A DNA stretch of 38,717 nt, taken from a virus. A program made the translations under genes and the position numbers. The notes below the pieces were generated by a model. The model worked only from the letters and a program-made list of their open reading frames with translations, was not told the DNA's origin and made no database searches. Below, piece after piece: positions 1 through 38,717 of this stretch. The first letter of the stretch is position 1. Every line of letters begins with the position of its first letter. The DNA is taken from IMG/VR virus record IMGVR_UViG_3300030098_001785, positions 1-38,717 of that record; one strand, 5' to 3'.

Positions 1-79
1 CGGGCGTTCTCTCAGCAAGGCTTTGAGATTTCAGAGCCAGTACATTACAGGGCGAAATCTCGTGACAATGGGAAGATCA
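1..79. repeat. Left copy of the terminal overlap of the contig
   Basis: Bases 3-79 are identical to 38641-38717. Adding bases 1-2 gives a 79-base match with one mismatch (base 2 is G, base 38640 is A). The repeat lies inside one continuous reading frame, so it is most simply an assembly overlap that closes a circle. A true phage direct terminal repeat is usually longer and lies outside genes. If circular, the genome is about 38,638 bp. Confidence 0.9.
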
Positions 80-744
80 ACGATCTCCCAGAGTACGGTC
101 GGTTCCTCAGTATGTACGGCATCAGCCACCCCCAACTCGCTTCAATCTCAGGAGTGACGTGGGAGTGCGCATTCCTGAACTCCTACGATATGACTTCATC
201 GGCAAAGTCAGTCATGGCTCGGCGAGTTATGGTCTGCACCAACGGCTGCTTCTTCGGCTCCGGTGAGGAGACTGCCGGTTTCCGGCGGAAGCACACGAAG
301 GGTATCGACAAGGACCGAGAGGGTCACTTCCAGACCCTGAATGACTTGATCACTGAGTCTATTGGCGGACTCCTTCGTCAGGCCGAGGGCGAGGAGCAGC
401 GTATCCTCCGCTGGCAGAACATGGAGTGCTCCAATGATGACGCCCGGTACGTCGCTGTCGAGGCTGCCAAGCAGGGAGTCATCGGGGCTGCTGCTGTCCT
501 CCGGGTGCTGAAGCACTGGGAGACCCCGGAGCATCCCGAGTTCAGGGATCGAAACGTCTGGTCACTGGAGAACGCCTTCACTTCCAATGACCGGGGCCAG
601 AACCTGTACTCCCAAGGTGCTCGTATGTCGAGGCTCGATGGGATCATCAATGATCGATTCGGGTTCGCGACTACGGTCCCAGACAGTGTGGATCAGGACT
701 ACGTTTCAATCGGGGATTCCCCGAATCACGCCTCTGATTTCTGA
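1..744 (+). CDS. DUF932-type phage protein, C-terminal part (gene crosses the contig junction)
   Basis: The frame is open from base 1 and continues the gene that starts at 38486. The joined protein is about 298 aa. The part here has a TNGCFFG stretch followed by a basic segment and a helical C-terminal half, which fits the DUF932 family of phage and plasmid proteins. That family has no settled biochemical role. The gene is the last of the early module and lies before the integrase. Its final codons contain one copy of the phage palindrome (708-726), read as IGDSPN about 20 nt before the stop. The first codon differs between the two copies of the overlap (CGG here, CAG at 38639). The family call rests on recalled pattern, not a search. 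Confidence 0.7.
   Translation, partial: RAFSQQGFEISEPVHYRAKSRDNGKINDLPEYGRFLSMYGISHPQLASISGVTWECAFLNSYDMTSSAKSVMARRVMVCTNGCFFGSGEETAGFRRKHTKGIDKDREGHFQTLNDLITESIGGLLRQAEGEEQRILRWQNMECSNDDARYVAVEAAKQGVIGAAAVLRVLKHWETPEHPEFRDRNVWSLENAFTSNDRGQNLYSQGARMSRLDGIINDRFGFATTVPDSVDQDYVSIGDSPNHASDF
708..726 (+). repeat. Dispersed palindrome copy 1 (in DUF932 gene end)
   Basis: AATCGGGGATTCCCCGAAT, with core TCGGGGA-T-TCCCCGA. It lies inside the coding sequence, read as I-G-D-S-P-N, and is followed by a GAATC (GANTC) site. Confidence 0.9.
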
Positions 745-752
745 TGATGAAT

Positions 753-803
753 GGGTCCCCTCCCTCATATCCCCCTTGTTCAGGAGTGGGGGAGGGGAGA
801 CCC
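753..803 (+). other. Strong GC-rich hairpin between DUF932 gene and integrase
   Basis: GGGTCCCCTCCC (753-764) can pair with GGGGAGGGGAGACCC (789-803) with one or two bulged bases, around a loop of about 24 nt. No T-run follows, so it is not a canonical intrinsic terminator. It could be a transcript-processing site (RNase III type), a weak terminator of the early operon, or an attP-region structure next to int. Confidence 0.45.
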
Positions 804-833
804 TAAAACAGAGCCGAAGCACAGGAGGTAGAC

Positions 834-1895
834 ATGGCAATAAGTAAACGAGGTGATTCGTTTCAAGTTTCCGTTTCATACCGGGGGCGGAGGGTCCGAA
901 AGTCTTTCCGCGACAGGCAGGAAGCATTGAAATACGAGGCTGAGGTCACAGTCGATATGTTGACGGGCAGGGAGCCGCGTGGTCTGGATAAGAAGTCCAG
1001 CCGTAAAGGCGTCCCGCTTACTGTCGGGGGCATGGCTGATCACGTATACGAAATGGAGTGGAAGCACCAGAAGTCCGCTGATCACACCTACAACAGGGTG
1101 CAAAAGGTCGTCGGATACTTCGGCGAAGACACGCCTCTTGAGTCCATCACTGCGTATTCATTGGAGTCGTACGCCCTACACCTGAGAAACGTAGAGAAGA
1201 ACGGACCGGCGACGATCAACAGAAAGATGGCGGTCATCAGTAAGATCCTGTCGTACGCTCACAGGCATGAAGTAATCAAGTTCAAGCCCAAAGTGAGTAG
1301 TCAGCGAGAGCCTGATGGGAGGATGAAGTACTACACGAAGGAAGAGGAGAGGGCTATCTCAGGAAAGATGATGGAGTTGGCCTCCCCCACGAACAACTTC
1401 CGTTGCCTGTCCGACTTCTTTCGCATTCTCGTTGATACAGGCATGCGTAGGGGGGAGTGCCTCAGTCTAGAGTGGGAGGACGTTGACTTTGAGAAGAACC
1501 AAATCACCCTTCCAGACCCGGATCAGATCAAAGCAGCGTTGCCGAGGTCGATCCCGATGACTAATAGAGTTAGGTTGATATTTACTAGGAGGAGGGTGGA
1601 TAGGTACGCTTGCTCCAAGCCATTTCCGTTTACTTCCCATCAGTTGGACAAGGAGGTACGGAAGTTCAGAGGTGAGGTATATGGCTCCAATGAGCCTCAT
1701 ATGGATATCGAGGACATCCCGTTATTCCACACCTGTAGACATACGTTCATCTCCCGGCTCCTCCAGAAGGGGGTCCCGTTGACGACCGTACGTGAACTCG
1801 CAGGTCACCGAGATATCAGTACGACAATGAGATACGCCCACCTCTCCCCCAACAATCATATAGATGCGATATCATTATTGGAGCCCACTGAGTAA
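834..1895 (+). CDS. int: Tyrosine recombinase / integrase
   Basis: This 353-aa site-specific recombinase would join phage and host DNA at att sites. The N-terminal 60 residues look like the AP2-type arm-binding domain of phage integrases (SVSYRGRRVRKSF). A core-binding helical domain follows (about 65-160), then the catalytic domain. Visible catalytic residues are Arg205 in TGMRRGE, His299-x-x-Arg302 in HTCRHTF, His325 in ELAGH and the nucleophile Tyr334 in MRYAH, so the protein appears intact. The ATG has an excellent Shine-Dalgarno AGGAGGT (823-829). It lies just upstream of RNA polymerase, the same order as in P-SSP7-like cyanophages and some pelagiphages. No excisionase was recognised, and attP cannot be located without a host sequence. 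Confidence 0.95.
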   Translation: MAISKRGDSFQVSVSYRGRRVRKSFRDRQEALKYEAEVTVDMLTGREPRGLDKKSSRKGVPLTVGGMADHVYEMEWKHQKSADHTYNRVQKVVGYFGEDTPLESITAYSLESYALHLRNVEKNGPATINRKMAVISKILSYAHRHEVIKFKPKVSSQREPDGRMKYYTKEEERAISGKMMELASPTNNFRCLSDFFRILVDTGMRRGECLSLEWEDVDFEKNQITLPDPDQIKAALPRSIPMTNRVRLIFTRRRVDRYACSKPFPFTSHQLDKEVRKFRGEVYGSNEPHMDIEDIPLFHTCRHTFISRLLQKGVPLTTVRELAGHRDISTTMRYAHLSPNNHIDAISLLEPTE

Positions 1896-1944
1896 GCCCG
1901 CTAAATTACAGTTCACCAAGCCACAACGGAGTGTGTCTTAACCT

Positions 1945-4350
1945 GTGTCCGATAGAAAAAATTACCAATCTAAACTCGAAGAAGAGATGGTCTCTCTTGG
2001 GAGGGACCGTTACCACCACAAAGTTAAACGTGCGAAGGAGACTTCACTAGAGTCAACTACGGCTGTCGGTCAGCACCTACTCGCTGAGTCAATAGATTTG
2101 ATGAGTGAGGCGTTGAAGTCGTGGCTACGAACTGCGAAGACGGCTCCCGGTAGACGCCATCGTGCGTACCCGTTCCTGAAGGAGTTACCTCTCAAGGTCG
2201 TGTCCGGTCTGACTGCACGCTGCATACTTGACTGCATCAGTATTGAACGCAAGATTGCGAGCACTGCGATTACGATCGGTCGCCTACTTGAGGACGAGAT
2301 GAAGTTCCGTAAGATCAGGGAGGAAGAGCCTGCTCTTTGGAATCAAATCAACCGTGTTCTTGATCGATACAAATCTCAGAAGACTAAATCTAAGTTCATC
2401 AATAAGACGATCCGGTTCCATGAACTCGTAGTCCATGCATGGACGAGGGAGGAAGCAGCGTCCGTAGGGTTGACTTGCATTGAGTTGCTCCGACAGTCAA
2501 CCGGGATCATCGACATCCTCACGAGGAGAGATCCTCAGGGCCGATCGTACACTGTCGTCCGTCCTACGGATGAACTAATGGATTGGATCAAGAACGCGCA
2601 CGAGTACAGGGAGGCATTGAATCCAGTATGGCTTCCTACAGTGGAGACTCCGATCGACTGGAACAATCCATACATCGGTGGCTACCACTCTCTGACGTTC
2701 CGTCGCCGCCCTCTAGTGAAGACTCAGGACAAAGCATATCTGGAAGAACTAGCACTTACTGACATGCCTCAAGTGTACGAGGCGATTAACCACGTTCAGC
2801 GAGTCCGATACGCCATCGACAAGGACGCCCTTGTAGTACTGGAGCATTGTTGGGATAAGAACCACCCAGTGGATGGTATTCCATCTCTTGAAGACGAGCC
2901 GATTCCCAACAAGCCCGCAGATATCGCTACTAACAAGGAGTCCAGACGTGCTTGGAGGAAGCAGGCCGCAAGGACTCACTTCGATAACGAGAGGCAGAAG
3001 TCCAAACGATTGCAGGTGATGAGGGTGATCAACCTGTCGAAGAAGTTTATTAACGATGAGATCTCATTTGTACGGCAACTAGATTTCAGAGGTAGATGCT
3101 ACGCTGTTCCATATTTCCTACAGCACCAAGGCCCCTCCTATGTCCGAAGTCTCCTCAGGTTCTCTCGTGGGCTGCCGCTGACAGACTCCGGTGCGATGTG
3201 GCTGTATATCAATGCTGCATCTAAATGGGGACTCGATAAGACTCCGTACAGTGAGCGACTTCGTTGGACTGAAGATAATATTGAATTCATCAGGAGAATC
3301 GGGGAATCCCCGATTGAGAACAAGGAGTGGATGGACGCGGATGACCCATGGTTATTCAAGGCTGCGTGTTCAGAGATCTACAGGATGCACCGGGACGGCG
3401 TCGGGTTCCTATCGACACTGCCGATCAGTCTAGATGCAACCAATCAAGGTCTACAGATCTACACGATGATGCTGTTGGATGAGGTGGGGGCCGCGTCAGT
3501 CAATGTCCTGCCCGGAGACAGGCCGCAGAGTATCTATGAGAACGTCGCTAAGAACGTCATCAGGAGGCTTCAGAACGACGACAGTCCGTACGCCTCCCCT
3601 TGGCTGGAGTTTGGGATTACTAAGGCGGCGACCAAGAGGCCGTCAATGACGCTCGTATACGGCTCCACCTTCTTTTCATGTCGGGGGTATACCGCTGACT
3701 GGTTCTATGAGGAACTGAAATCCGGCAGGGAGAACCCGTTCGGAGATGAGACATATAAACCATGCAACTACTTGGCTCAAATCATCTGGGAGTCGATCGA
3801 TGAGGAGGTGCACTCGGCTAAAATTGGTATGGACTGGCTTAGATCGTGTGCCCAGTTATTCATTGAACACGGGGTCACGCCCCGATGGTCTACACCTCTC
3901 GGCTTTCCCGTCAAGATGTACTACGAGAACACGAACAAGTACGCAGTCAAGACGCTTGTTGGTGGAGTGCTCAGGCAGCACCGCCTTCGGCTCCCCAATG
4001 GCACTACTAATAAGAGGAAAACAGTCAACGCAATTTGTGCGAACAAGGTCCACTCAACTGATGGCATTGGCGGCTTACTCGGTCGCATCATCTGCCTCGC
4101 CAAAGAGCGTGGAGTAGATGATATCTCAGACATACATGACTCGATATCAGCACACGCTTGTAATATCGATACGATGCAATCCTGTATCCGAGAGGGCACT
4201 GTTCAAATATTTCAAGAAAACCAGTTGGAAATCCTAGCGGACCAACTTGAAAGACAACTCCCGCCCGGTGTAACATTGCCGTCTATACCGGAACGGGGAA
4301 ACCTGAATATCGAAGATGTGCTTCGATCTAAATACTACTTCAATGTGTAA
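1945..4350 (+). CDS. T7-like single-subunit DNA-dependent RNA polymerase
   Basis: This 801-aa enzyme (T7 gp1 is 883 aa) transcribes the middle and late phage genes. Motif A is LDATNQGLQ with catalytic Asp497. Motif B is KRPSMTLVYGS with Lys564 and Tyr572, equivalent to T7 K631 and Y639. Motif C is IHDS with His731 and Asp732, equivalent to T7 H811 and D812. The GTG start is chosen because the next residues (LEEEMVSLGRDRY) match the N-terminal region of T7-like polymerases; the ribosome site (CGGAG) is weak. The gene lies 49 nt after int and 16 nt before SSB. A reverse-oriented copy of the phage palindrome lies inside it (3297-3315), coding IGESPI around residue 453. The phage promoter it recognises was not identified with confidence. 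Confidence 0.97.
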   Translation: MSDRKNYQSKLEEEMVSLGRDRYHHKVKRAKETSLESTTAVGQHLLAESIDLMSEALKSWLRTAKTAPGRRHRAYPFLKELPLKVVSGLTARCILDCISIERKIASTAITIGRLLEDEMKFRKIREEEPALWNQINRVLDRYKSQKTKSKFINKTIRFHELVVHAWTREEAASVGLTCIELLRQSTGIIDILTRRDPQGRSYTVVRPTDELMDWIKNAHEYREALNPVWLPTVETPIDWNNPYIGGYHSLTFRRRPLVKTQDKAYLEELALTDMPQVYEAINHVQRVRYAIDKDALVVLEHCWDKNHPVDGIPSLEDEPIPNKPADIATNKESRRAWRKQAARTHFDNERQKSKRLQVMRVINLSKKFINDEISFVRQLDFRGRCYAVPYFLQHQGPSYVRSLLRFSRGLPLTDSGAMWLYINAASKWGLDKTPYSERLRWTEDNIEFIRRIGESPIENKEWMDADDPWLFKAACSEIYRMHRDGVGFLSTLPISLDATNQGLQIYTMMLLDEVGAASVNVLPGDRPQSIYENVAKNVIRRLQNDDSPYASPWLEFGITKAATKRPSMTLVYGSTFFSCRGYTADWFYEELKSGRENPFGDETYKPCNYLAQIIWESIDEEVHSAKIGMDWLRSCAQLFIEHGVTPRWSTPLGFPVKMYYENTNKYAVKTLVGGVLRQHRLRLPNGTTNKRKTVNAICANKVHSTDGIGGLLGRIICLAKERGVDDISDIHDSISAHACNIDTMQSCIREGTVQIFQENQLEILADQLERQLPPGVTLPSIPERGNLNIEDVLRSKYYFNV
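3297..3315 (-). repeat. Dispersed palindrome copy 2 (inside RNA polymerase gene, reverse orientation)
   Basis: AATCGGGGAATCCCCGATT is a perfect inverted repeat with 9-bp arms. It is the only copy with the central base reversed. It is read in frame as I-G-E-S-P-I and is flanked by a GAATC site. Confidence 0.9.
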
Positions 4351-4366
4351 GTAAGGAGGATTCACA

Positions 4367-4969
4367 ATGTCAACGAAACCGGAACGTATTATGTCCCCCA
4401 TCGGGGAGGCGGTGTGGCCCAAACTCAACAAGCCCGACACCAAGTTCGATAAGGATGGTGTCTACGAAGTCAAACTTCGTTTGGGGCAGGAGGATGCAGA
4501 GCCGTTCATCGATCAACTTAAGACGATCCTGAAGACCTTCATGGAAGGACTGGATAAGAAGAAGCCGAAGATGGCTCCCCTTCCATTCCGTGAGGTCGAG
4601 GATGATGACGGTAACCCCACCGGCCAGATTGACTTCAAGTTTAAGTTGAAGGCGATCGGCGGCCGAGGTGACAATCAGTTCACGCAGCGCCCCGCTTTGC
4701 TTGATTCGAAACGCCGACCGATGACGGAAGAGATCGGAGGAGGTTCCCGCATTCAGATTGGGGCTGAGGTCGTCACGTACGATGTCGCTTCGATTGGTGT
4801 GGGGATCTCTCTCCGACTCAAGGCCGTCATGGTTCACGAACTGAAGCAGTACAGCCGTGGGGCCGACAGTTGGGAGTTCTCCGAGGGCGGTAGTTTCGTG
4901 ACCGATGGTGCAGAGGCTGAACAGCCTCAAACTGAGAGAGCGACTACCTCTGATGAGTTCGACTTCTGA
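4367..4969 (+). CDS. T7 gp2.5-like single-stranded DNA-binding protein
   Basis: This 200-aa protein is in the position (after RNA polymerase) and size range of T7 gp2.5-like SSBs. It should coat single-stranded DNA and recruit polymerase and helicase-primase. Its C-terminus is acidic and ends in an aromatic residue (TSDEFDF), the hallmark tail by which gp2.5 contacts its replication partners. The body has the expected beta-rich character, with basic patches around residues 60-125. The start is supported by a strong AAGGAGG site 7 nt upstream; the leader AGGAGGATTCACAATG resembles the box found before several early genes. The next gene starts inside its last codons. Confidence 0.88.
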   Translation: MSTKPERIMSPIGEAVWPKLNKPDTKFDKDGVYEVKLRLGQEDAEPFIDQLKTILKTFMEGLDKKKPKMAPLPFREVEDDDGNPTGQIDFKFKLKAIGGRGDNQFTQRPALLDSKRRPMTEEIGGGSRIQIGAEVVTYDVASIGVGISLRLKAVMVHELKQYSRGADSWEFSEGGSFVTDGAEAEQPQTERATTSDEFDF

Positions 4970-5417
4970 TGTAACAATCAAGAAGCATCGGGGGCAACTC
5001 CGATGGTCGATCTTTATCCCTATAGATCCTGTCCCGGCTTCTCGGCCAAGGTTCGCGAGGTCGGGCAGGGTCTACTACGGGAAACGGTACACACAATTCC
5101 GTCGCCAAGCAGCAGCCCTGTTCGCGATGACGGAGTTCCCTGTAAAGTTTCCTTTATCTGGGAAGGTTGCTGTATCTACTAAGTTTGTAGTAGAGAGACC
5201 CAAGAGGACTAAACGCCACACGCCAAGAGGCGATGTCGATAACTACTTCAAAACACTGGACGTCCTCAACGAGGTTGTTTGGTGGGATGACGACCAACTT
5301 GTTTGGGCCAGTATGTCGAAAGAATACGGGGAGGCGAGTGGAATATATTTGGAGGTAATGGAAATTGACTTCGTTCCTGAGACACGAGCCTTGTCCCAAA
5401 TGTGGGTCAAGAGATAA
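4953..5417 (+). CDS. RusA-like Holliday-junction resolvase / endonuclease
   Basis: This 154-aa protein resembles RusA, a metal-dependent nuclease that resolves branched DNA. The N-terminal part has the family's proline and arginine pattern (PVPASRPRFARSGRVYY). The active-site segment is GDVDNYFKTLDVLNEVVW followed by DDDQLV, giving the expected aspartates and lysine. It occupies the place of T7 endonuclease I (gp3), so it is likely a non-homologous replacement that debranches replicating DNA before packaging. The ATG at 4953 overlaps the SSB gene by 17 nt; an in-frame ATG at 4905 would lengthen the overlap and has no better ribosome site. Its end overlaps the helicase start by 53 nt. Confidence 0.85.
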   Translation: MSSTSDVTIKKHRGQLRWSIFIPIDPVPASRPRFARSGRVYYGKRYTQFRRQAAALFAMTEFPVKFPLSGKVAVSTKFVVERPKRTKRHTPRGDVDNYFKTLDVLNEVVWWDDDQLVWASMSKEYGEASGIYLEVMEIDFVPETRALSQMWVKR

Positions 5418-6963
5418 TCTCGCTCGTTATTCGGACGGACATGCCTACTGCTTCGGCTGTGGGTATTACGAACACGCTGATGGCACTTCTACCTATAAGG
5501 AGACTCACAAAGTGTCTGGACTTATCGAACATGAAATCGTCCCGTTGGTAAAACGGGGCATCGAGATCGAGACTTGCCAGAAATGGAAGTACGGTGTCGG
5601 TGAATACAATGGCAAGCCTGTGCAGATCGCAAACTACTGCGACAAGCAGGGGCAGATCATCGCGCAGAAACTGCGCTTCGCTGATAAGAGTTTCAGGTGG
5701 CTTGGAGACACCTCCAAGGTCGGCCTCTACGGCTCCCACCTCTGCCGAGACGCAGGTAAGTGGGTAATCATCACCGAGGGGGAGACTGATGCTCTCTCCG
5801 TATCTCAGGCGTTCAACCTGAAGTGGGCTGTGGTCTCACTTCCTAATGGTGCGAAATCTGCACCGAAGGTCGTGGCCGAACACATTGACTGGTTGGAGAA
5901 CTTTGAATCCGTCGTATTGTGTTTCGATCAAGACGAACAGGGGCGCAAAGCAGCAGTCGAGGCCGCCCAGATGTTGAGTCCGGGCAAGGCTAAGATCGTT
6001 ACCAACCTCCCCCAGAAGGATGCGAACGACTGCCTGAAGAGCGGTCAAGTTAAGGAGTTACTTGAGGCTATATACGGAGCGCCCACTTTTAGGCCCGATG
6101 GCGTCATCCCCGGAGAGGAACTTTGGGAGTCCATCATCAAGGAAGATGACCGCCAGTCGATCCCCTACCCTTGGTCCGGCTTGAACAGTAAGTTGTTTGG
6201 CATGCGGGGTGGTGAACTCGTCACCCTGACTGCTGGTACTGGCATTGGTAAGAGCAGCGTCACTCGGGAACTCGCCTACTACCTGATCGAGATGGGTCAG
6301 AAGGTAGGGTATATCGCTCTAGAAGAGTCCTGTCGGCGTACTGCTGAACACATCATGGGACTCCATATGTACAACCCTCCGTTCCGTTGGGCTGAGACGG
6401 GCGTCACTGAGGAGCAGAAGAGAGAGGCGTTTGACGCGACTGTAGGGTCTGGGAAGATGGTTCTGTATGACCACTGGGGGTCCATCGATCCGACCAACCT
6501 ACTGAATAGAATTAGATACATGGCGAGAGCCATGGAATGCAAGTGCGTCTTTCTCGATCACCTTTCGATCGTCGTCAGTGCGCTTGAGTCCGGCGACGAG
6601 CGTCGGATGATTGACAACACGATGACTCGTTTGCGCAGCCTCGTAGAGGAAACGGGCGTCCACCTCGTGTTGGTGTCACATTTACGTCGCCCAGATGGGA
6701 GGTCACATGAAGAAGGTGGGAATACTAGCCTTGCTCAGTTGCGTGGTAGTCATGCTATTGCACAACTCTCGGACGCAGTCATCGGATGCGAACGAGATCA
6801 ACAGGACGAAAGCACATCCAACCGGCTTACGTTGCGAGTACTCAAAAACAGATACGCTGGGCTCACCGGAGTCGCACAGACCCTTGAATACGACGATAAG
6901 AATGGACGACTTACTGAGTGGATCGCCCCAGAAGTCATTGACGTACCCGGACTCGACACCTGA
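5365..6963 (+). CDS. T7 gp4-like primase-helicase
   Basis: This 532-aa bifunctional replication protein has an N-terminal zinc-binding domain with CPKC and CFGC Cys pairs (residues 10-33). A TOPRIM primase domain follows (ITEGETDALSV, and CFDQDEQGRKAA). The C-terminal RecA-like hexameric helicase has Walker A TAGTGIGKSS, Walker B VFLDHLSIV and motif H4 LRGSHAIAQLSD. The start is TTG at 5365, preceded by a perfect GGAGGT (5351-5356). Any later start would lose the first Cys pair, so the 53-nt overlap with the RusA gene looks real. Its last 257 nt also encode the leader and linker of the lysozyme gene in another frame, including across the conserved H4 motif. Confidence 0.96.
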   Translation: MTSFLRHEPCPKCGSRDNLARYSDGHAYCFGCGYYEHADGTSTYKETHKVSGLIEHEIVPLVKRGIEIETCQKWKYGVGEYNGKPVQIANYCDKQGQIIAQKLRFADKSFRWLGDTSKVGLYGSHLCRDAGKWVIITEGETDALSVSQAFNLKWAVVSLPNGAKSAPKVVAEHIDWLENFESVVLCFDQDEQGRKAAVEAAQMLSPGKAKIVTNLPQKDANDCLKSGQVKELLEAIYGAPTFRPDGVIPGEELWESIIKEDDRQSIPYPWSGLNSKLFGMRGGELVTLTAGTGIGKSSVTRELAYYLIEMGQKVGYIALEESCRRTAEHIMGLHMYNPPFRWAETGVTEEQKREAFDATVGSGKMVLYDHWGSIDPTNLLNRIRYMARAMECKCVFLDHLSIVVSALESGDERRMIDNTMTRLRSLVEETGVHLVLVSHLRRPDGRSHEEGGNTSLAQLRGSHAIAQLSDAVIGCERDQQDESTSNRLTLRVLKNRYAGLTGVAQTLEYDDKNGRLTEWIAPEVIDVPGLDT

Positions 6964-7309
6964 GGACTACAGGAAACTACTGGATGCGATACGGATCCAA
7001 GAGACTGGAGGCCACTCCTCACCGCAGGATGCAGTAGGTGATGGAGGAAGGTCTCTTGGGCCGTATCAAATATCAGAGGACTACTGGTTAGACGCCGTCG
7101 AGTATCGGCCCCGAATTGGAGGGACATATCAAGATGTCAAGAGAGAAGGATACGCAGAAGAAATCATCTGCGCCTACTGGGACCGATGGTGTAGAGGCGG
7201 CTCATGGGAAACAAGGGCACGCACGCATAACGGGGGACCGATGGGATCGCGGAAAACTGCTACAGAAAAATACTGGCAGGCCGTGTCCGATCGTCTTGGG
7301 GGTAGGTGA
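6707..7309 (+). CDS. Endolysin: i-type (destabilase-like) lysozyme with N-terminal signal or anchor
   Basis: This 200-aa protein would cut peptidoglycan at lysis. The catalytic domain (about 85-200) has the invertebrate-type lysozyme pattern: IQETGG with candidate catalytic Glu99, Asp112 before SLGPYQI, then YWLDA, AYWDRW, and ARTHNGGPMG followed by YW. Most cysteines of animal i-type lysozymes are missing. From ATG 6707 the N-terminus is KK followed by 16 hydrophobic residues (VGILALLSCVVVMLLH), suited to a Sec or signal-arrest-release leader. GGGAGGT lies just upstream (6697-6703). The leader and linker overlap the helicase gene out of frame, and the catalytic domain starts where the helicase ends. 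An alternative start at ATG 6902 would give a leaderless cytosolic enzyme but lacks a ribosome site. T7 has an amidase (gp3.5) instead. Confidence 0.8.
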   Translation: MKKVGILALLSCVVVMLLHNSRTQSSDANEINRTKAHPTGLRCEYSKTDTLGSPESHRPLNTTIRMDDLLSGSPQKSLTYPDSTPEDYRKLLDAIRIQETGGHSSPQDAVGDGGRSLGPYQISEDYWLDAVEYRPRIGGTYQDVKREGYAEEIICAYWDRWCRGGSWETRARTHNGGPMGSRKTATEKYWQAVSDRLGGR

Positions 7310-7517
7310 ACGGGCAACGTGGTTGCAAATTGCGGAATGGCTCTCTGAGGAGGAGGGGTGTGTGATTCCCCCTCAAACTATCCAGAGAGCATTCAACACC
7401 ACCCTGAAGAGGTTGGGGGTCACTCTACTAAAGGATCGCTTCATCCGAACGTGGCTCGAAGACAACGGCTTTGAACTTCCTGATGAGGAAGAGAAAGGAG
7501 ACTTATGTACACCCTAG
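7134..7517 (+). CDS. Hypothetical protein with HTH-like C-terminal half
   Basis: This 127-aa protein is not recognised. The C-terminal half (from ATWLQIAEWLSEEEG through TIQRAFNTTLKRLG) has the helix spacing of a small winged or helix-turn-helix DNA-binding domain, then an acidic tail. ATG 7134 has GGAGGG 10 nt upstream but overlaps the lysozyme gene by 176 nt. A later start near TTG 7296 would keep the HTH-like part and nearly remove the overlap, so the N-terminal 55 residues are uncertain. Its last 13 nt overlap the DNA polymerase start, suggesting translational coupling. Confidence 0.6.
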   Translation: MSREKDTQKKSSAPTGTDGVEAAHGKQGHARITGDRWDRGKLLQKNTGRPCPIVLGVGERATWLQIAEWLSEEEGCVIPPQTIQRAFNTTLKRLGVTLLKDRFIRTWLEDNGFELPDEEEKGDLCTP

Positions 7518-9319
7518 TGTTTGATATCGAAACGAATGCGATCAAAGACTTTAAGACTCTATGCGGCCTCCAGACCATTCACTGTATTGCGTTGGGGCGT
7601 CCCGGTGAGGACCCTCAGATCCTTGAGGTCGAGGATGCGTTGGCGGAACTCAGTAAGGCCGACGTCTTGGTGGGCCACAACATTATGAACTTCGACATCC
7701 CCGCCATCAAGCGGCTCTACCCCGACTGGGACACGAGCAGTTGCTGTATCAGGGACACGCTAGTTATGTCGAGGATGCTGTGGCCTGACATCCAGAATGA
7801 GGACTGGCAGATCCCAGAGTTCCCCCGGCAACTTATAGGTCGCCACTCATTGAAGGCGTGGGGCTACCGCATGGGTATCTTGAAGGATTCATTCGGGGAT
7901 TCCCCGATTTGGGATGAGTTCACTCCAGAGATGGCAGAGTATTGCATCCAAGATGTCCGAGTAACTCAGGCTCTCTGGGATCGCATCGAGAAGGAGAACC
8001 CTCCTGAAAACCCCACAGTGCTGGAACACGAATTCGCGGAAATCATCTCAGAACAAGAGAGAAACGGATTCGCTTTCGACGTAGACGCCGCTAGGAAACT
8101 GCACGTCGAACTTCTCAGTGAGAAGGACTCCCTCCGCCGGGAACTTCAGTCGTGCTTTCCAGCCCAAGTAATCAAGATGAAGACCCCGGCTTACTATGAG
8201 AACCCGATCACGGGCGAGAGGTTTACCCGTAAGAAGGACGCCCCCTCCAAGGAGCAGAAAGTCTTGATTAGGGGGGAACTCAGGACCAAGGAGATACCCT
8301 TCAACCCCGGCAGCCGAGATCAGATCGCTAAGGGACTGATCGACAAGTACGGGTGGAAGCCTGTGGACTTCACGGGTGAGGGGAAGCCGAAGGTGGATGA
8401 GTCCGTCCTTAATGGGTTGGAATATCCTGAAGCCAAACTGATGATGAAGTACCTGACCGTCTCGAAGAGGCTGGGTCAGATCAGTGACGGTCGTGAGTCG
8501 TGGATGAAGGCGGAGGAGAATGGAAGGATATATGGACGAGTCAATCCCTGCGGGGCTGTGACAACGAGATGCACCCACTCCCGCCCGAATATGGCTCAAG
8601 TACCGGGAGTCCACGCCCCTTGGGGCAAGGAGTGCCGTAGCCTGTTTACGGTCCCTGAGGGCTATGTCCTTCTGGGAGTGGACCTTAGTTCCTTGGAGTT
8701 GAGGTGTCTCGCTCACTACACCTACAAACTAGACGGAGGTCGGTACACGAACGAGGTTCTGTCAGGTGACATTCATACTGCCAACCAAGAGGCAGCAGGA
8801 TTAAAGCACCGAAATGACGCAAAAGTATTCATATACGCAGTGACCTATGGTGCAGGTGACGCCAAGATTGGATCGATTATTGGAGGCGGTCGCAATGAGG
8901 GACGCCGCCTGAAGGAGCAGTTCTTCCGAAAGATGCCTGCTCTCAAGAAGATCGTCGAGGCCATCAAGTACAGAGTGAAGACTCAGGGACATCTAATAAG
9001 TATCGACGGTCGGAGACTGAGGATCCGATCAGAACACTCCGCTCTTAATACTTTGTTACAATCAGCGGGGGCAATTGCGGTGAAGCAAGCGACTTGTAAT
9101 CTTCACCGTTCCCTACGGTCCCATGGATGGGGCAAAGAGGATGTCATGCAGGTGGCTCACATCCACGATGAGATCCAACTTCAAGTCCGCAAGGAGATCG
9201 CGGAAGATGTCGGGAACCTTTCGATACAAGCCATCCGCCAAGCCGGTGAGGACCTCGGGTTCCGCTGCCCGCTTGACGGAGAATTCAAAATCGGAAATAA
9301 CTGGGCAGAGACTCACTGA
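7505..9319 (+). CDS. Family A DNA polymerase (T7 gp5-like)
   Basis: This 604-aa replicative polymerase has a 3'-5' exonuclease domain. The exonuclease motifs are FDIET (Asp7, Glu9), VGHNIMNFDIPAI and YCIQDVRVT. The polymerase motifs are A VDLSSLELR (Asp393), B RNDAKVFIYAVTYGAG (Lys440, Tyr448) and C HIHDEIQL (Asp555), so both activities look intact. It is about 100 residues shorter than T7 gp5 and probably lacks the long thioredoxin-binding insertion. The ATG has AAAGGAG upstream and overlaps the preceding ORF by 13 nt. A copy of the phage palindrome lies in the exonuclease domain (7891-7909), coding FGDSPI. A homing endonuclease ORF starts right after the stop. Confidence 0.97.
   Translation: MYTLVFDIETNAIKDFKTLCGLQTIHCIALGRPGEDPQILEVEDALAELSKADVLVGHNIMNFDIPAIKRLYPDWDTSSCCIRDTLVMSRMLWPDIQNEDWQIPEFPRQLIGRHSLKAWGYRMGILKDSFGDSPIWDEFTPEMAEYCIQDVRVTQALWDRIEKENPPENPTVLEHEFAEIISEQERNGFAFDVDAARKLHVELLSEKDSLRRELQSCFPAQVIKMKTPAYYENPITGERFTRKKDAPSKEQKVLIRGELRTKEIPFNPGSRDQIAKGLIDKYGWKPVDFTGEGKPKVDESVLNGLEYPEAKLMMKYLTVSKRLGQISDGRESWMKAEENGRIYGRVNPCGAVTTRCTHSRPNMAQVPGVHAPWGKECRSLFTVPEGYVLLGVDLSSLELRCLAHYTYKLDGGRYTNEVLSGDIHTANQEAAGLKHRNDAKVFIYAVTYGAGDAKIGSIIGGGRNEGRRLKEQFFRKMPALKKIVEAIKYRVKTQGHLISIDGRRLRIRSEHSALNTLLQSAGAIAVKQATCNLHRSLRSHGWGKEDVMQVAHIHDEIQLQVRKEIAEDVGNLSIQAIRQAGEDLGFRCPLDGEFKIGNNWAETH
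7891..7909 (+). repeat. Dispersed palindrome copy 3 (inside DNA polymerase gene)
   Basis: ATTCGGGGATTCCCCGATT is read in frame as F-G-D-S-P-I. A second GATTC lies a few bases upstream. Confidence 0.9.
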
Positions 9320-9320
9320 G

Positions 9321-9665
9321 TTGTCTTGGGCTGCTGGCCTACTAGATGGGGAGGGGTGCTTCAGAGTAGGCACTTCTCCCGCTATTGGGGCGGATATGAC
9401 GTCTAAGTCAACCATCGAGAAACTCCACCAGATCCTTGGGGGGAACTGCGCGGCTATCAATAGAAAGACGAATAAGAACCGACAGGTCTTCCGATGGAGA
9501 GTGTCTGGATCTGAGGCGATTGAAATATGTAAACTACTCCTGCCCTTCCTCGTTGAGAAACAGAAGCAGGCAGAGTTAGTATCAATCTTCTATCGGTTTC
9601 CACCGAATTCAGCCATGCGGGAGTCAATCATTCACAGGCTCTCAGAACTTAAAAGGAGCGTGTAA
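9321..9665 (+). CDS. LAGLIDADG-type homing endonuclease, single motif
   Basis: The motif SWAAGLLDGEGCFRV is a clear LAGLIDADG signature (GLLDGEG), followed by a beta-rich segment and a helical end typical of small single-motif enzymes that act as homodimers. From TTG 9321 the protein is about 114 aa and begins immediately after the DNA polymerase stop (9317-9319), so stop-restart translation is likely. No good ribosome site is seen. The frame is also open upstream inside the polymerase gene (ATG at 9123 or 9141), so the start is uncertain. It is probably a free-standing mobile element targeting the polymerase 3' region. No intron or intein boundary was seen. Confidence 0.75.
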   Translation: MSWAAGLLDGEGCFRVGTSPAIGADMTSKSTIEKLHQILGGNCAAINRKTNKNRQVFRWRVSGSEAIEICKLLLPFLVEKQKQAELVSIFYRFPPNSAMRESIIHRLSELKRSV

Positions 9666-14335: not shown

Positions 14336-14354
14336 ATTCGGGGATTCCCCGAAT
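14336..14354 (+). repeat. Dispersed palindrome copy 4 (upstream of major capsid gene)
   Basis: ATTCGGGGATTCCCCGAAT is a perfect inverted repeat with 9-bp arms. It is intergenic, ending 32 nt before the capsid ATG, and is the only copy in the late-gene leaders. Confidence 0.92.
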
Positions 14355-33236: not shown

Positions 33237-33255
33237 ATTCGGGGATTCCCCGATT
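33237..33255 (+). repeat. Dispersed palindrome copy 5 (upstream of early terminator)
   Basis: ATTCGGGGATTCCCCGATT is intergenic in a 346-nt gap (33060-33405), 13 nt before the intrinsic terminator. A GATTC overlaps its left side. Confidence 0.92.
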
Positions 33256-33265
33256 GAATGGTCAA

Positions 33266-33292
33266 CGCACCCCTGTCGATCGGGGTGTTTTT
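33266..33292 (+). terminator. Intrinsic terminator separating late and early modules
   Basis: CACCCC (33268-33273) pairs with GGGGTG (33282-33287) around an 8-nt loop, followed directly by TTTTT. It would stop late transcripts just before the early promoter at 33307. Confidence 0.85.
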
Positions 33293-33405: not shown

Positions 33406-34194
33406 ATGGCTACCAAGAAACGCACCAAGTCACACAAGGATGCCGCCGACATCGCGGCCAAGGCCGAGCAGGTCCGGATCGAGATGGAGCACGACGCCCA
33501 CAACGCGTATCAGACGCTTCAGACCGATGCGGTCTCGTTCCTGAACGCCGACACCGTCGCCCAGCAGGAGGGAGTTGCGTTCGGATTCAACCTGAACGTC
33601 TTCATGGCCGACCACGCCGACGTCCTCGGCTTGACCCTCGAAGACATCGCGGCCACCCTCGGGACGTCTGCCGACCGGCTCCGATCCTGTCGTCTGGCTG
33701 CCGGCCTCCGGCCGTTCCTCGGGCGTCTCGATCTTGACGACGTCGACTCGTACTCTTGGGCCCGGATCATCGTGTCGGGCTTGAAGGAGCAGAATGAGAA
33801 GGGGGACAGCCGGAACGTCACCCCGGACATGTTCCACGCGGCCGATCTGGAGCACATCGAACGGGATTTCCCGAACACGTGCCGCCGGCTGGGCTTGTTC
33901 GGCGAGGCCATGACTCGCGGCCATCTGCCGGTCAAGGCTGCGAGGATCGCGAGGGACGCCGATCGGGCGGACTTCGACACCGTCGCCGACATGGTGGAGG
34001 CCAAGGCTGAGGCCAGGGCTGACGCCGCGGAAGCCAGCACAGCGAAGACCGACTTCGACCGGGCCTTGGAGGCCATCGCGAAGGCGTCGAAGATCATCGC
34101 TGGTCTGGAGGGCGAGGAGCGCGACGCCGCGATCAAGGCGGCCAAGGCGGCGTTCACTGTGAAGGCGATCAAGGCTGCGGCCGAGTCCGCCTGA
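33406..34194 (+). CDS. GC-rich early protein with HTH-like segment, 262 aa
   Basis: The family is not recognised. The mostly helical, alanine-rich protein has a segment at about 77-100 (LTLEDIAATLGTSADRLRSC) with the spacing of a helix-turn-helix. A long charged helical region follows (about 190-240; EAKAEARADAAEASTAKT). The leader has TCTAGGAGACTCAACAATG, the early box. It is the first gene after the early promoter, so a host-takeover or regulatory role is plausible. GC is clearly higher than elsewhere (about 67% in a counted 60-base line at 33601), suggesting recent acquisition. Confidence 0.8.
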   Translation: MATKKRTKSHKDAADIAAKAEQVRIEMEHDAHNAYQTLQTDAVSFLNADTVAQQEGVAFGFNLNVFMADHADVLGLTLEDIAATLGTSADRLRSCRLAAGLRPFLGRLDLDDVDSYSWARIIVSGLKEQNEKGDSRNVTPDMFHAADLEHIERDFPNTCRRLGLFGEAMTRGHLPVKAARIARDADRADFDTVADMVEAKAEARADAAEASTAKTDFDRALEAIAKASKIIAGLEGEERDAAIKAAKAAFTVKAIKAAAESA

Positions 34195-34412: not shown

Positions 34413-34546
34413 GTGATAGCGAGGCGTAGCCGAGCGTCGTGATAGCGGTGGGTCGATCGCCATGGCGGTGGACCGTGATAGCGGGCATCCGTCGATTCAG
34501 TGCGGGGACGTATTCGGGGATTCCCCGATTGATGAACCTGATAGCG
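34413..34546 (+). repeat. Direct repeats GTGATAGCG (x3) and TGATAGCG (x1) in early intergenic region
   Basis: GTGATAGCG occurs at 34413, 34439 and 34475, and TGATAGCG at 34539. A second repeat, TTCAGTGCGGGG, occurs at 34496 and 34554. The 333-nt gap 34370-34702 holds no convincing gene. It also carries a GC-rich hairpin (about 34379-34406), two palindromes and a strong promoter, so it looks like a control region. Confidence 0.75.
34512..34530 (+). repeat. Dispersed palindrome copy 6 (early control region)
   Basis: ATTCGGGGATTCCCCGATT lies between the GTGATAGCG repeats and the sigma70 promoter at 34593. Confidence 0.92.
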
Positions 34547-34592: not shown

Positions 34593-34621
34593 TTGACAAA
34601 CGATTCATATTCGGATACAAT
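34593..34621 (+). promoter_or_regulatory. Strong sigma70 promoter
   Basis: TTGACA (34593-34598), an exact 17-bp spacer and TACAAT (34616-34621) form a near-consensus promoter. It should drive the early operon from 34703 onward. Confidence 0.85.
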
Positions 34622-34666
34622 ACGTACGTCACATGGAGGTAGGCGTCAGCCCTACCAGTCACATCC

Positions 34667-34685
34667 ATTCGGGGATTCCCCGATT
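34667..34685 (+). repeat. Dispersed palindrome copy 7 (leader of ORF 34703)
   Basis: ATTCGGGGATTCCCCGATT lies downstream of the strong promoter, so it would be in the transcript leader. Its core ends 19 nt before the ATG at 34703. A second GATTC follows. Confidence 0.92.
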
Positions 34686-35029: not shown

Positions 35030-35047
35030 TTCGGGGATTCCCCGATT
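35029..35047 (+). repeat. Dispersed palindrome copy 8 (leader of ORF 35070)
   Basis: ATTCGGGGATTCCCCGATT begins right at the stop of the preceding gene. Its core ends 24 nt before the next ATG. Three GATTC sites lie within 21 bases. Confidence 0.93.
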
Positions 35048-35749: not shown

Positions 35750-35768
35750 GTTCGGGGATTCCCCGATT
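35750..35768 (+). repeat. Dispersed palindrome copy 9 (leader of ORF 35793)
   Basis: GTTCGGGGATTCCCCGATT has its core ending 26 nt before the ATG at 35793. A GATTC follows. Confidence 0.92.
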
Positions 35769-36116: not shown

Positions 36117-36328
36117 ATAAGTACGACCCCGGCATCAACATGCAGGCTGTCATCCAATACGTCGACGACTGCATGAACCGCCCCAAGTTCGGTCTTCCAG
36201 TTTCCAGTGGGCACGTCTACGCGCACCTGTTGGAGACCATCGAGCGTGCTGCGGTTCACTTCGGCGTGTCGAAGGCTACCATCGGCCCCGCCATCTTCCG
36301 GTGGTTCAACGGAGGAGATTCACAATGA
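36113..36328 (+). CDS. Hypothetical early protein, 71 aa
   Basis: Not recognised. It is read from GTG 36113, coupled by GTGA to the previous stop, with GGAGGTGGA upstream. Segments are MQAVIQYVDDCMNRPKFGLP and HFGVSKATIGPAIFRW. The latter could be a short helix-turn-helix. Confidence 0.68.
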   Translation: MNKYDPGINMQAVIQYVDDCMNRPKFGLPVSSGHVYAHLLETIERAAVHFGVSKATIGPAIFRWFNGGDSQ

Positions 36329-36594
36329 GAAACTACAGAGCAATCCTTGAGTTGCTAATCCTCAAAATCGGGGGTCGGTACTCGTACACGGTGTTCACTC
36401 ATGGGGACTCCCCAGTCGAGCGATTTGAGTTCACGCTGCCCTTCAATGACCGTGAGTATTTCGCTCACACGGCGGAGCAGGCGTTGGACATACTGATCGA
36501 TGCTTTGTTGATGCATGATTTCGACTACGGGAGACTCCTCTGGGATCTCTTCCGGCCAATCGGGGATTCCCCGAATGAGGGAGGTGACGCATGA
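36325..36594 (+). CDS. Hypothetical early protein carrying two palindrome-encoded motifs, 89 aa
   Basis: Not recognised. ATG 36325 follows GGAGGAGATTCACA, a variant of the early box. The protein contains HGDSPV from a degenerate palindrome (36402-36414) and IGDSPN near its end from an exact copy (36558-36576), in the same frame. The middle is acidic and helical (AHTAEQALDILIDALLMHDF). It overlaps the next ORF by ATGA. Confidence 0.72.
   Translation: MRNYRAILELLILKIGGRYSYTVFTHGDSPVERFEFTLPFNDREYFAHTAEQALDILIDALLMHDFDYGRLLWDLFRPIGDSPNEGGDA
36402..36414 (+). repeat. Degenerate palindrome copy 10 (variant)
   Basis: TGGGGACTCCCCA keeps the GGGGA/TCCCC arms but has a changed centre and outer bases. 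It codes G-D-S-P in the same frame as the exact copies. Confidence 0.55.
36558..36576 (+). repeat. Dispersed palindrome copy 11 (end of ORF 36325)
   Basis: AATCGGGGATTCCCCGAAT is coding (I-G-D-S-P-N), and its core ends 16 nt before the ATG of the membrane microprotein. Confidence 0.92.
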
Positions 36595-37140: not shown

Positions 37141-37157
37141 TCGGGGATTCCCCGAAT
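37139..37157 (+). repeat. Dispersed palindrome copy 12 (leader of GP88-like gene)
   Basis: AATCGGGGATTCCCCGAAT overlaps the TAA of the preceding gene. Its core ends 20 nt before the ATG at 37176, with GAATC and the box TCTAGGAGAGTCACC between. Confidence 0.93.
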
Positions 37158-37175: not shown

Positions 37176-37910
37176 ATGAAACTACTAGGAACGAATAACA
37201 AACTAGACAAACAGTCCTCCCGAGGAGAGCCGTTCGTTCTCCGGGGTTTGTCCCTCGCTCCTGCTGATCTCAGTGGGTATGAGACGTGTCCGATGCGTAC
37301 TCCTGACTGCACGAAGGCGTGCATCGGGGTCAAGTCAGGGCACAACCGATTCAACCCTGCGAAGGAGGCGAAGATCAGGAAGACGAAGTTGTTCTTCGAG
37401 GACAACGAGACGTTTATGACTCAGTTATTCCGTGAGATCAACAACCTGCGGAAGTACTGTGATCGTCTCGGCAAGAGTCCTGTGGTCCGCCTCAACACGT
37501 ACTCGGATATCGTCTGGGAGAAGAAGCACCCTGAGATCTTCCGTGAGTTCTCTGATGTGCAGTTCTACGACTACACGAAGATCCACCAGAGGTGGGATCT
37601 ACCGGACAACTACCACCTGACTCTCTCGTACACTGGGTACAACTGGGAGCAGTGCGAGTCGTGGCTGACTACTCACCGCAATGTCGCAGTCGTATTCAAG
37701 GACTGCTGGGACAACCCCCTGCCCGACACGTGGCGTGGCTTCACTGTCGTGGATGCCGATAAGGACGACTGTCGGTGGCTGGAGGCTCCCGGTACAATCT
37801 CTGGGCTTCGCACGAAGGGGTCCGTCAAACACGCTGGGCCTTTCTTCGCGGACGCCACAGAACTCACCATTGGTAGACGCAAGATCGTCACGGAGGAGGT
37901 ATGCGTATAA
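37176..37910 (+). CDS. GP88-like phage protein with Cys cluster, 244 aa
   Basis: The N-terminal part has GLSLAPADLSGYETCP followed by PDCTKACIGVKSGHN, then a helical segment with AKIRKTKLFFEDNETF. This Cys-Pro...Cys...Cys layout followed by A-x-x-R-K-T-x-x-F resembles the GP88 family of phage proteins of unknown function. The middle (RLNTYSDIVWEK, YDYTKIHQRW) could be a barrel-like core. A metal or iron-sulphur site is possible but unproven. The leader TCTAGGAGAGTCACCATG and a palindrome precede it. It overlaps the next ORF by 10 nt. Confidence 0.7.
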   Translation: MKLLGTNNKLDKQSSRGEPFVLRGLSLAPADLSGYETCPMRTPDCTKACIGVKSGHNRFNPAKEAKIRKTKLFFEDNETFMTQLFREINNLRKYCDRLGKSPVVRLNTYSDIVWEKKHPEIFREFSDVQFYDYTKIHQRWDLPDNYHLTLSYTGYNWEQCESWLTTHRNVAVVFKDCWDNPLPDTWRGFTVVDADKDDCRWLEAPGTISGLRTKGSVKHAGPFFADATELTIGRRKIVTEEVCV

Positions 37911-38092
37911 AGTGGAGCAACAGAGTTCGTATTGTTGAGAGTTTCCTGAAGACGGGCCGACTGAAACCTGCTCAGGACATGGCTCGGGAACTACTCAAAG
38001 AAGATGACAGCAGTGAAATGTTGATGCCTCAGGAGCAGTATTTCCTGAAGGCCGTAATCAAAGCAAAACGATTGGATGATGTAGACATCTGA
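37901..38092 (+). CDS. Hypothetical early protein, 63 aa
   Basis: Not recognised. A basic N-terminus (MRIKWSNRVRIVESFLKTGR) is followed by a helical, acidic end. GGAGG lies 5 nt before the ATG, inside the previous gene. No membrane or Cys features. Confidence 0.68.
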   Translation: MRIKWSNRVRIVESFLKTGRLKPAQDMARELLKEDDSSEMLMPQEQYFLKAVIKAKRLDDVDI

Positions 38093-38485: not shown

Positions 38486-38717
38486 ATGAGCACAGAACTC
38501 ATCGCTCCCACGCCGTACAACCCCAAGGCTTGGGGTGAGCGTGTGGATATCGGAACCATTCGTCGTACCCGTGTCCCTGTAAGAGGCCCGGAGTCGTGGC
38601 GTCCCCTGCCCCATGACACGTTCATCACGATGATCGAGCAGGCGTTCTCTCAGCAAGGCTTTGAGATTTCAGAGCCAGTACATTACAGGGCGAAATCTCG
38701 TGACAATGGGAAGATCA
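38486..38717 (+). CDS. DUF932-type phage protein, N-terminal part (continues at base 1)
   Basis: The start has the leader TTTAGGAGATATAACATG. The open frame reaches the window end and continues in frame at base 1. The N-terminus (YNPKAWGERVDIGTIRRTRV) is followed by WRPLPHDTFITMIEQAFSQQ. Joined length is about 298 aa. The 68-nt gap before it (38418-38485) shows no promoter that I can support. Confidence 0.75.
   Translation, partial: MSTELIAPTPYNPKAWGERVDIGTIRRTRVPVRGPESWRPLPHDTFITMIEQAFSQQGFEISEPVHYRAKSRDNGKI
38639..38717. repeat. Right copy of the terminal overlap of the contig
   Basis: Matches bases 1-79 with one mismatch (38640 A versus base 2 G), changing Gln to Arg in the DUF932 protein. 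Confidence 0.9.

Follow-up and report, generated by a model that had tools for sequence, protein, structure and literature searches.

The virus record IMGVR_UViG_3300030098_001785, a marine T7-like phage sequence of 38,717 nt with an integrase gene, was analysed over its full length (38.7 kb) and is referred to below as the window. It carries 11 exact copies of the palindrome TCGGGGANTCCCCGA, whose family has the word form TCGGGGA-N-TCCCCGA. T7-like phages serve as the textbook example of a lytic phage; some of them encode integrases. The palindromes are symmetric sites at the DNA level, with a word specific to each genome, and they occupy conserved places: both flanks of the early host-type promoter, the regions before early genes and the end of the DUF932 gene. 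Several members of the group have additional sites within the gene for the RNA or the DNA polymerase or ahead of that for the capsid. They probably serve as dispersed, stoperator-like operators for one dimeric DNA-binding regulator encoded by the phage.

Palindromes and their genome-specific words

Most copies in the window are intergenic (Table 1). When one mismatch was allowed, GGGGANTCCCC matched the window 13 times against 2.2 expected, a number reached by none of 100 shuffled sequences. In 100 second-order Markov simulations an odd palindrome with 7-bp arms was never present in more than one copy, and the window contains one with 11.

Many relatives of the window, cited here by G and L numbers, are present in IMG/VR, a large part of them as fragments. 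Each was scanned for any repeated palindrome, irrespective of its sequence, and genes were called from open reading frames (ORFs) and homology without a trained caller. Most of the close relatives in which the early region is covered have a repeated palindrome, each genome with its own word; in more distant contigs such a family was often not found, and none arose in Markov simulations based on the 16 sequences scanned first. At least eight distinct words have been distinguished, the site consensus being genome-specific and diverging between relatives: TCGGGGA (the window, G002, L067 and L005), TCGGAGA (G003 and G031), CCGGGGA (G025 and G048), GTTGGGA (G034, G027 and G028), TCGCACA (G026), GTAGCAA (G044), CCGAAC (L340 and L347), GTCTAG types (G032, G036, G050, L309, L321, L322 and L349) and further words in others. 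The well-covered relatives have about 5-12 sites. Within a genome the word is uniform at nearly all sites, and between genomes it differs by mirror-symmetric changes. Asymmetric cores occur in both orientations with respect to transcription (TATCCC twice and GGGATA once in G029, both forms in L309, GGT 5 and ACC 2 in G050, 6/6 in G025 and G031), while the genes all run in one direction. In L322 (5056-5082) three site copies overlap in 7-bp steps, with TCTAGAG repeated; elsewhere the sites are single.

Different words are found at the same positions of conserved genes. The site at codon 452 of the RNA polymerase gene is shared by the window, G002, G003, G025, G031 and G034/G027/G028, with four words and no insertion or deletion in the codon alignment; that at codon 130 of the DNA polymerase gene is shared by the window, G002, G003, G031 and G026, with three words and one mismatch each in G002 and G003. 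The C-terminus of the DUF932 gene carries a site with the genome's own word in G002, G003, G025, G031, G034, G028, G026, G029, L067 and G044. Upstream of the capsid gene a site was found in L005 (the same word as in the window) and in G025 (its own word), and the site in the leader of the GP88 gene has a counterpart at the same place in G003, again with its own word.

The peptides follow the words. In the RNA polymerase the site is read either as GESP (GGG GAA TCC CCG or GGA GAG TCT CCG) or as VGNPN (GTT GGG AAT CCC AAC), and in the DNA polymerase either as FGESPN (TTC GGA GAG TCT CCG AAT) or as FAQCAD (TTC GCA CAG TGT GCG GAT). Relatives without the sites have IGxDP in the RNA polymerase and F-A/G-E-x-x in the DNA polymerase, mostly with no insertion or deletion; since site-less RNA polymerase genes align without gaps, with GG[TCG]-xxx-GA[TC]-CC at the position of the site, the site itself is a substitution. 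Judged by these alignments, substitution and not insertion gave rise to the copies in both polymerase genes. The alignment of both polymerases with their relatives had been named as the check in the original prediction, which was made from the window sequence alone and had suggested either insertion or selection that spares protein function. Selection at the DNA level, at places which tolerate several residues, stands; insertion does not, as existing codons have been replaced. No relative keeping GDSP with unrelated codons was seen; instead the relatives retain a palindrome, its word is a different one, and the encoded residues change accordingly. A palindrome that is retained while both its word and the encoded peptide change points to a constraint on the DNA, set by a dimeric protein acting in trans.

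One genome looks as if a switch of specificity had been caught in progress. The word of G026, TCGCACA, differs by two symmetric changes from TCGGAGA of its relative G031 and is used at the DNA polymerase and DUF932 sites; the position in the RNA polymerase gene is occupied by a decayed TCGGAGA-like copy with 3 mismatches, and another such copy with 2 mismatches is located at 7103. This is a single case, and the mismatch scan has a background of 0.65 expected.

Reading frame of the coding copies

All five coding copies in the window had been claimed to be read in one frame, and they are: each gives G-D/E-S-P, with the centre of the palindrome at codon position 3. The peptides are IGDSPN in the DUF932 protein, IGESPI in the RNA polymerase, FGDSPI in the DNA polymerase, and HGDSPV and IGDSPN in the ORF starting at 36301/36325. 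The chance of 1/81 given for this agreement was reproduced as 3 x (1/3)^5, with the caveat that no homologue of the 36325 ORF could be detected, which leaves three of the five copies in homologue-supported genes. Across the relatives, GGRGANTCYCC words occupy 17 distinct coding positions, and at 14 of these the centre falls on codon position 3 (P = 1.4e-4 for any frame in common), the exceptions being G002:4993 (SGNPR), G031:13224 (RRLSD) and G031:6539 (SETLR); when only homologue-supported ORFs were counted, 9 of 12 positions were in this frame (P about 0.012, hand calculation).

Relatives with the GTTGGGANTCCCAAC (GTTGGGA) word use a different frame, in which the centre is at codon position 2 and the peptide is VGNPN (three positions), and the TCGCACA word gives FAQCAD at both of its two coding positions. 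The frame preference is thus real, but it is neither absolute nor independent of the word. As the frame differs with the word, it is the reading that each word can afford; the common frame in the window is a consequence of the peptide being tolerated and not a property of the element. With the palindrome centred on the third base of a codon, the wobble bases fall at -6, -3, 0, +3 and +6 and mirror each other; a change from TCGGGGA to TCGGAGA therefore alters no amino acid on either side (GGG to GGA and TCC to TCT). This frame would accordingly be cheap for symmetric drift, which may explain why it is preferred.

Putative regulator, alternatives and known systems

The early promoter of the window is of the host sigma-70 type and is flanked by a pair of sites, an arrangement repeated in G034, G025 and G031; the second site of the pair lies directly ahead of the first ribosome-binding site. 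Between the promoter and this second site the window has a small hairpin (GGTAGGCGTCAGCCCTACC, 34632-34656), and hairpins of other sequence accompany the early promoter in G034 and G025. In the GC-rich stretch 5' of the promoter, four G/CTGATAGC octamers are present on one strand, at 34413, 34439, 34475 and 34538, with two more ahead of the early promoter of G031; they may belong to an origin or a packaging signal.

The candidate for the regulator is gene X. An ORF of this type, of about 205-310 amino acids, follows the first site in 14 genomes. Its products are homologous among L322, L349, G050, L309, L321 and L346 (blastp, down to 2e-33), where the words are GTCTAG- or TTCTAG-like, and within the pairs G025/G044 (4e-6) and L340/L347; four residues of the G025 protein are masked. 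None of the X proteins has a convincing match to a known family. Three of them, from the window, L322 and G044, were compared with cultured phages and gave no match, and a PDB search with the X profile returned one weak match, of no use. The fast divergence of X would fit a regulator whose specificity changes.

Two further proteins were considered as the binder and rejected. A small ribbon-helix-helix-like protein encoded upstream of DUF932 gave a profile match in six genomes (L067:2342-2644 in the oriented contig, G031:7790, G026:1466, G028:2431, G034:3291 and G029:543) and none in the window, G003 and G025; in some genomes its gene has a palindrome in the leader, and it is possibly a second regulator. 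The 63-amino-acid ORF at 37901-38092 of the window has homologues in eight word-bearing genomes, and a search of G004 and G005 gave none; nothing about its product suggests DNA binding.

As we picture it, a dimer, most likely of the gene X product, would occupy the palindromes. Bound to the flanking pair, it would be able to repress the early promoter, and at the remaining sites it would block the elongating polymerase in the manner of stoperators, with the outcome that lytic genes would be kept silent or early genes switched off. G-D/E-S-P would be the reading of the window's word that the proteins hosting the sites tolerate. Sites inside the RNA polymerase gene were found only together with an integrase, in 6 of the 9 lineages that have one and in none of the 4 that lack it (hypergeometric about 0.05, by hand), which agrees weakly with a prophage whose lytic genes are silenced.

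Several observations weigh against such operators and against X as their ligand. No similarity to other X proteins was detected for those of the window, G031 and G048, which match no family and whose helix-turn-helix was recognized by eye only. X was picked by its position after the first site, and that position is therefore not independent evidence. The centre base in the window, read on the coding strand, is T in 10 copies and A in 1, a bias for which an orientation-free site has no need. Finally, sites are also present in genomes with no adjacent integrase (L067, G048, G005, G032 and G050); a strict link with the integrase was dropped on this account, and sites in the early region of such genomes make early shut-off an alternative to a purely lysogenic role.

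Among the competing explanations, the two that refer to the coding copies fare worst. The original prediction had compared the palindromes to the in-frame elements of Rickettsia, which are inserted and much longer. Both types lie in frame inside genes, and in the window the palindromes are indeed dispersed in genes and all in one frame; the present sites, however, measure only 15-19 bp and replace existing codons, as the codon alignments demonstrate for the RNA polymerase copies and the DNA polymerase copy of the window, and their word is rewritten in concert at the same positions between genomes, a behaviour that suits protein-binding sites and not mobile elements. The resemblance is accordingly rejected, and a spreading insertion element is hardly credible. 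Equally little can be said for a selected GDSP/GESP loop of which the DNA word would be a by-product: one peptide does recur in the five coding copies, and the RNA polymerase loop of the relatives keeps Gly and usually Pro, but GESP gives way to VGNPN and FGESPN to FAQCAD with the palindrome kept, and the copies are mostly intergenic.

The remaining three explanations deal with the sites as a whole. That the palindromes are promoters for the T7-like RNA polymerase of the phage itself is suggested by the several sites directly upstream of genes, the capsid gene included, and by cyanophage Syn5, whose RNA polymerase recognizes a short, partly symmetric promoter, ATTGGGCACCCGTAA, with one copy in its own gene (PMC3950665). 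That copy is at codon 270, which is not the position homologous to codon 452, and the specificity loop (K-x-x-x-KTLV-x-G-x-LRQHRLRIPNG) hardly varies between genomes whose words are quite different: 87% of it is common to G031 and G026, which use TCGGAGA and TCGCACA, respectively. The cores are moreover dyad-symmetric and present in both orientations; many sites are in the host-transcribed early region, where they flank a sigma-70 promoter, and no palindrome precedes the capsid gene in G003 and G031. The constant loop, the position around the sigma-70 promoter and the missing capsid sites together make phage promoters very unlikely. The sites could instead act in mRNA as hairpins that stabilize leaders, direct processing or bind a regulator, for each can form a 6-8-bp hairpin and many stand directly before ribosome-binding sites. 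We regard this as improbable: folding is only modestly better than that of shuffled sequences (z -0.8 to -1.7), a processing hairpin would be free to vary among copies and the word is fixed in each genome, reverse-complement pairs such as TATCCC/GGGATA are different RNA loops and one and the same duplex site, positions in the middle of both polymerase genes are ill-suited to leader elements, and no Rfam match was obtained. Lastly, the protein behind the sites might be no classical repressor but a ParB/KorB-like one for partition or silencing, with the palindromes as its centromere or silencer sites. The word of L321, GTCTAGCSGCTAGAC, resembles the KorB operator. The X protein of G031 has a weak ParB-like match among PHROG profiles (E=0.0024), the only one obtained, and KorB of plasmid RK2 is a known silencer protein with dispersed operators (PMC11790492). 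The PHROG match, however, falls in a low-complexity helical tail, Pfam detects no ParB or KorB domain in the ten X proteins tested and that of the window, and no ParA-like gene was noticed, though none was searched for systematically; a partition or silencing protein of this kind is likewise unlikely.

Of the known systems, dispersed operators as proposed here come closest to the stoperators of Cluster A mycobacteriophages (L5, Bxb1 and Trixie), in which the repressor Rep has many short sites genome-wide, some at the early promoter and the majority elsewhere; these sites are 13-bp, asymmetric, oriented with transcription and number up to about 30 per genome (PMC6550527). Common to both are the scattered sites and a genome-specific consensus, which in Cluster A changes with the repressor. 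Cluster A phages also have a site by the repressor gene; here a pair of sites surrounds the early sigma-70 promoter, and one lies near gene X, which is a candidate for the repressor gene. Unlike the stoperators, the present sites are dyad-symmetric, lie in both orientations and are fewer, and the phages are T7-like and unrelated, with no recognized relative of Rep. The KorB-OB system of RK2 offers short dispersed operators for one regulator, as is proposed here, and KorB silences also at a distance (PMC11790492); unlike it, the present sites belong to a phage genome, come with no detected KorB/ParB domain, have words that differ between relatives and are found within polymerase genes. For temperate T7-like phages a MarR-based switch has been proposed on the example of LUZ100, from which no stable lysogens were obtained (PMC10134795). 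Phages of this type share with the window the T7-like organization and the integrase directly upstream of the RNA polymerase gene, and a repressor at phage promoters has been proposed for them (PMC10134795), whereas in the window DUF932, and not a MarR-like gene, directly precedes the integrase. A MarR gene is annotated also in HTVC019P and CRP-171. The first 25-42 kb of LUZ100, CRP-171, HTVC168P and HTVC019P contain no dispersed palindrome family.

Taken further, and here we see the chances as about even, a large and mostly uncultured group of T7-like phages would possess an undescribed immunity-like system, in which a fast-diverging repressor family (gene X) is combined with a word of its own, present about 5-12 times per genome; the whole set would be rewritten at a change of specificity, with coding frames that make symmetric rewriting cheap. 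Operators spread over the genome, with words that are genome-specific throughout the clade, would provide a concrete control system for integrase-bearing T7-like phages, and the words would predict immunity groups of uncultured phages. Regulatory DNA would also dictate amino acids in polymerase genes, the operator word deciding between GESP and VGNPN or between FGESPN and FAQCAD.

Gene content and minor observations

Gene order in the window is T7-like: DUF932, tyrosine integrase, RNA polymerase, single-stranded DNA-binding protein, endonuclease, primase, DNA polymerase, exonuclease, portal, scaffold, capsid, tail, terminase and the early region. The record has a 77-base repeat at its ends, and the DUF932 gene spans them; the record is probably circularly permuted or circularly assembled. 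By megablast, cultured phages contain no near-identical match to its first 25 kb, and the GTDB genomes scanned with the DNA polymerase gave only distant relatives (up to 47%).

Table 1 Palindromic sites and associated features of the window
Feature	Position	Strand	Remarks
Site 1	710-724		C-terminal codons of DUF932 gene (SIGDSPN), upstream of integrase; exact word
Site 2	3299-3313		Within RNA polymerase gene, codon 452, IGESP
Site 3	7893-7907		Within DNA polymerase gene, codon 130, FGDSPI
Site 4	14338-14352		Upstream of major capsid gene (start 14387)
Site 5	33239-33253		Ahead of terminator and gene X
Site 6	34514-34528		Upstream of early sigma-70 promoter; pairs with site 7
Site 7	34669-34683		Downstream of early promoter, ahead of ribosome-binding site of first early gene
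Site 8	35031-35045		Leader of gene with start 35070
Site 9	35752-35766		Leader of gene with start 35793
Shorter variant GGGGACTCCCC	36403-36413		In ORF starting at 36325 (HGDSPV)
Site 10	36560-36574		3' end of 36325 ORF (IGDSPN), next gene directly after
Site 11	37141-37155		Leader of GP88 gene (start 37176)
DUF932 gene	38487-38717 and 1-744		PF06067, E=2.9e-6
Tyrosine integrase	834-1895	+	Pfam Phage_integrase, E=6e-24
Single-subunit (T7-like) RNA polymerase	1945-4350	+	33-35% identity to autographivirus RNA polymerases over 99% of length
DNA polymerase (T7-like)	7505-9319	+	IMG/VR homologues with 33-83% identity; position in gene order
Intrinsic terminator-like hairpin	33267-33288	+	Between site 5 and gene X
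Gene X, candidate operator-binding regulator	33406-34194	+	262 amino acids; helix-turn-helix-like segment by eye only
Early sigma-70-type promoter, TTGACA-17-TACAAT	34593-34621	+	11/12 consensus bases; between sites 6 and 7

Directly 3' of the integrase gene of G003 (L030:6380-6430) there is a sequence, GGTAGCGGAGGAGGGATTTGAACTCC, that approximates a tRNA 3' end in reverse complement and may be the core of an attP site for integration at a tRNA gene; a piece of this kind was not seen after the integrase gene of the window. A 204-amino-acid ORF of the window (6695-7309) overlaps the 3' end of the primase gene by about 270 bases in another frame; it has homologues of 69-74% in G002 and G003 and 53% in G025, and its second half is lysozyme-like by eye. 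Another ORF (9123-9665) overlaps the 3' end of the DNA polymerase gene, contains a LAGLIDADG-like segment (AAGLLDGEG) and is conserved in relatives.

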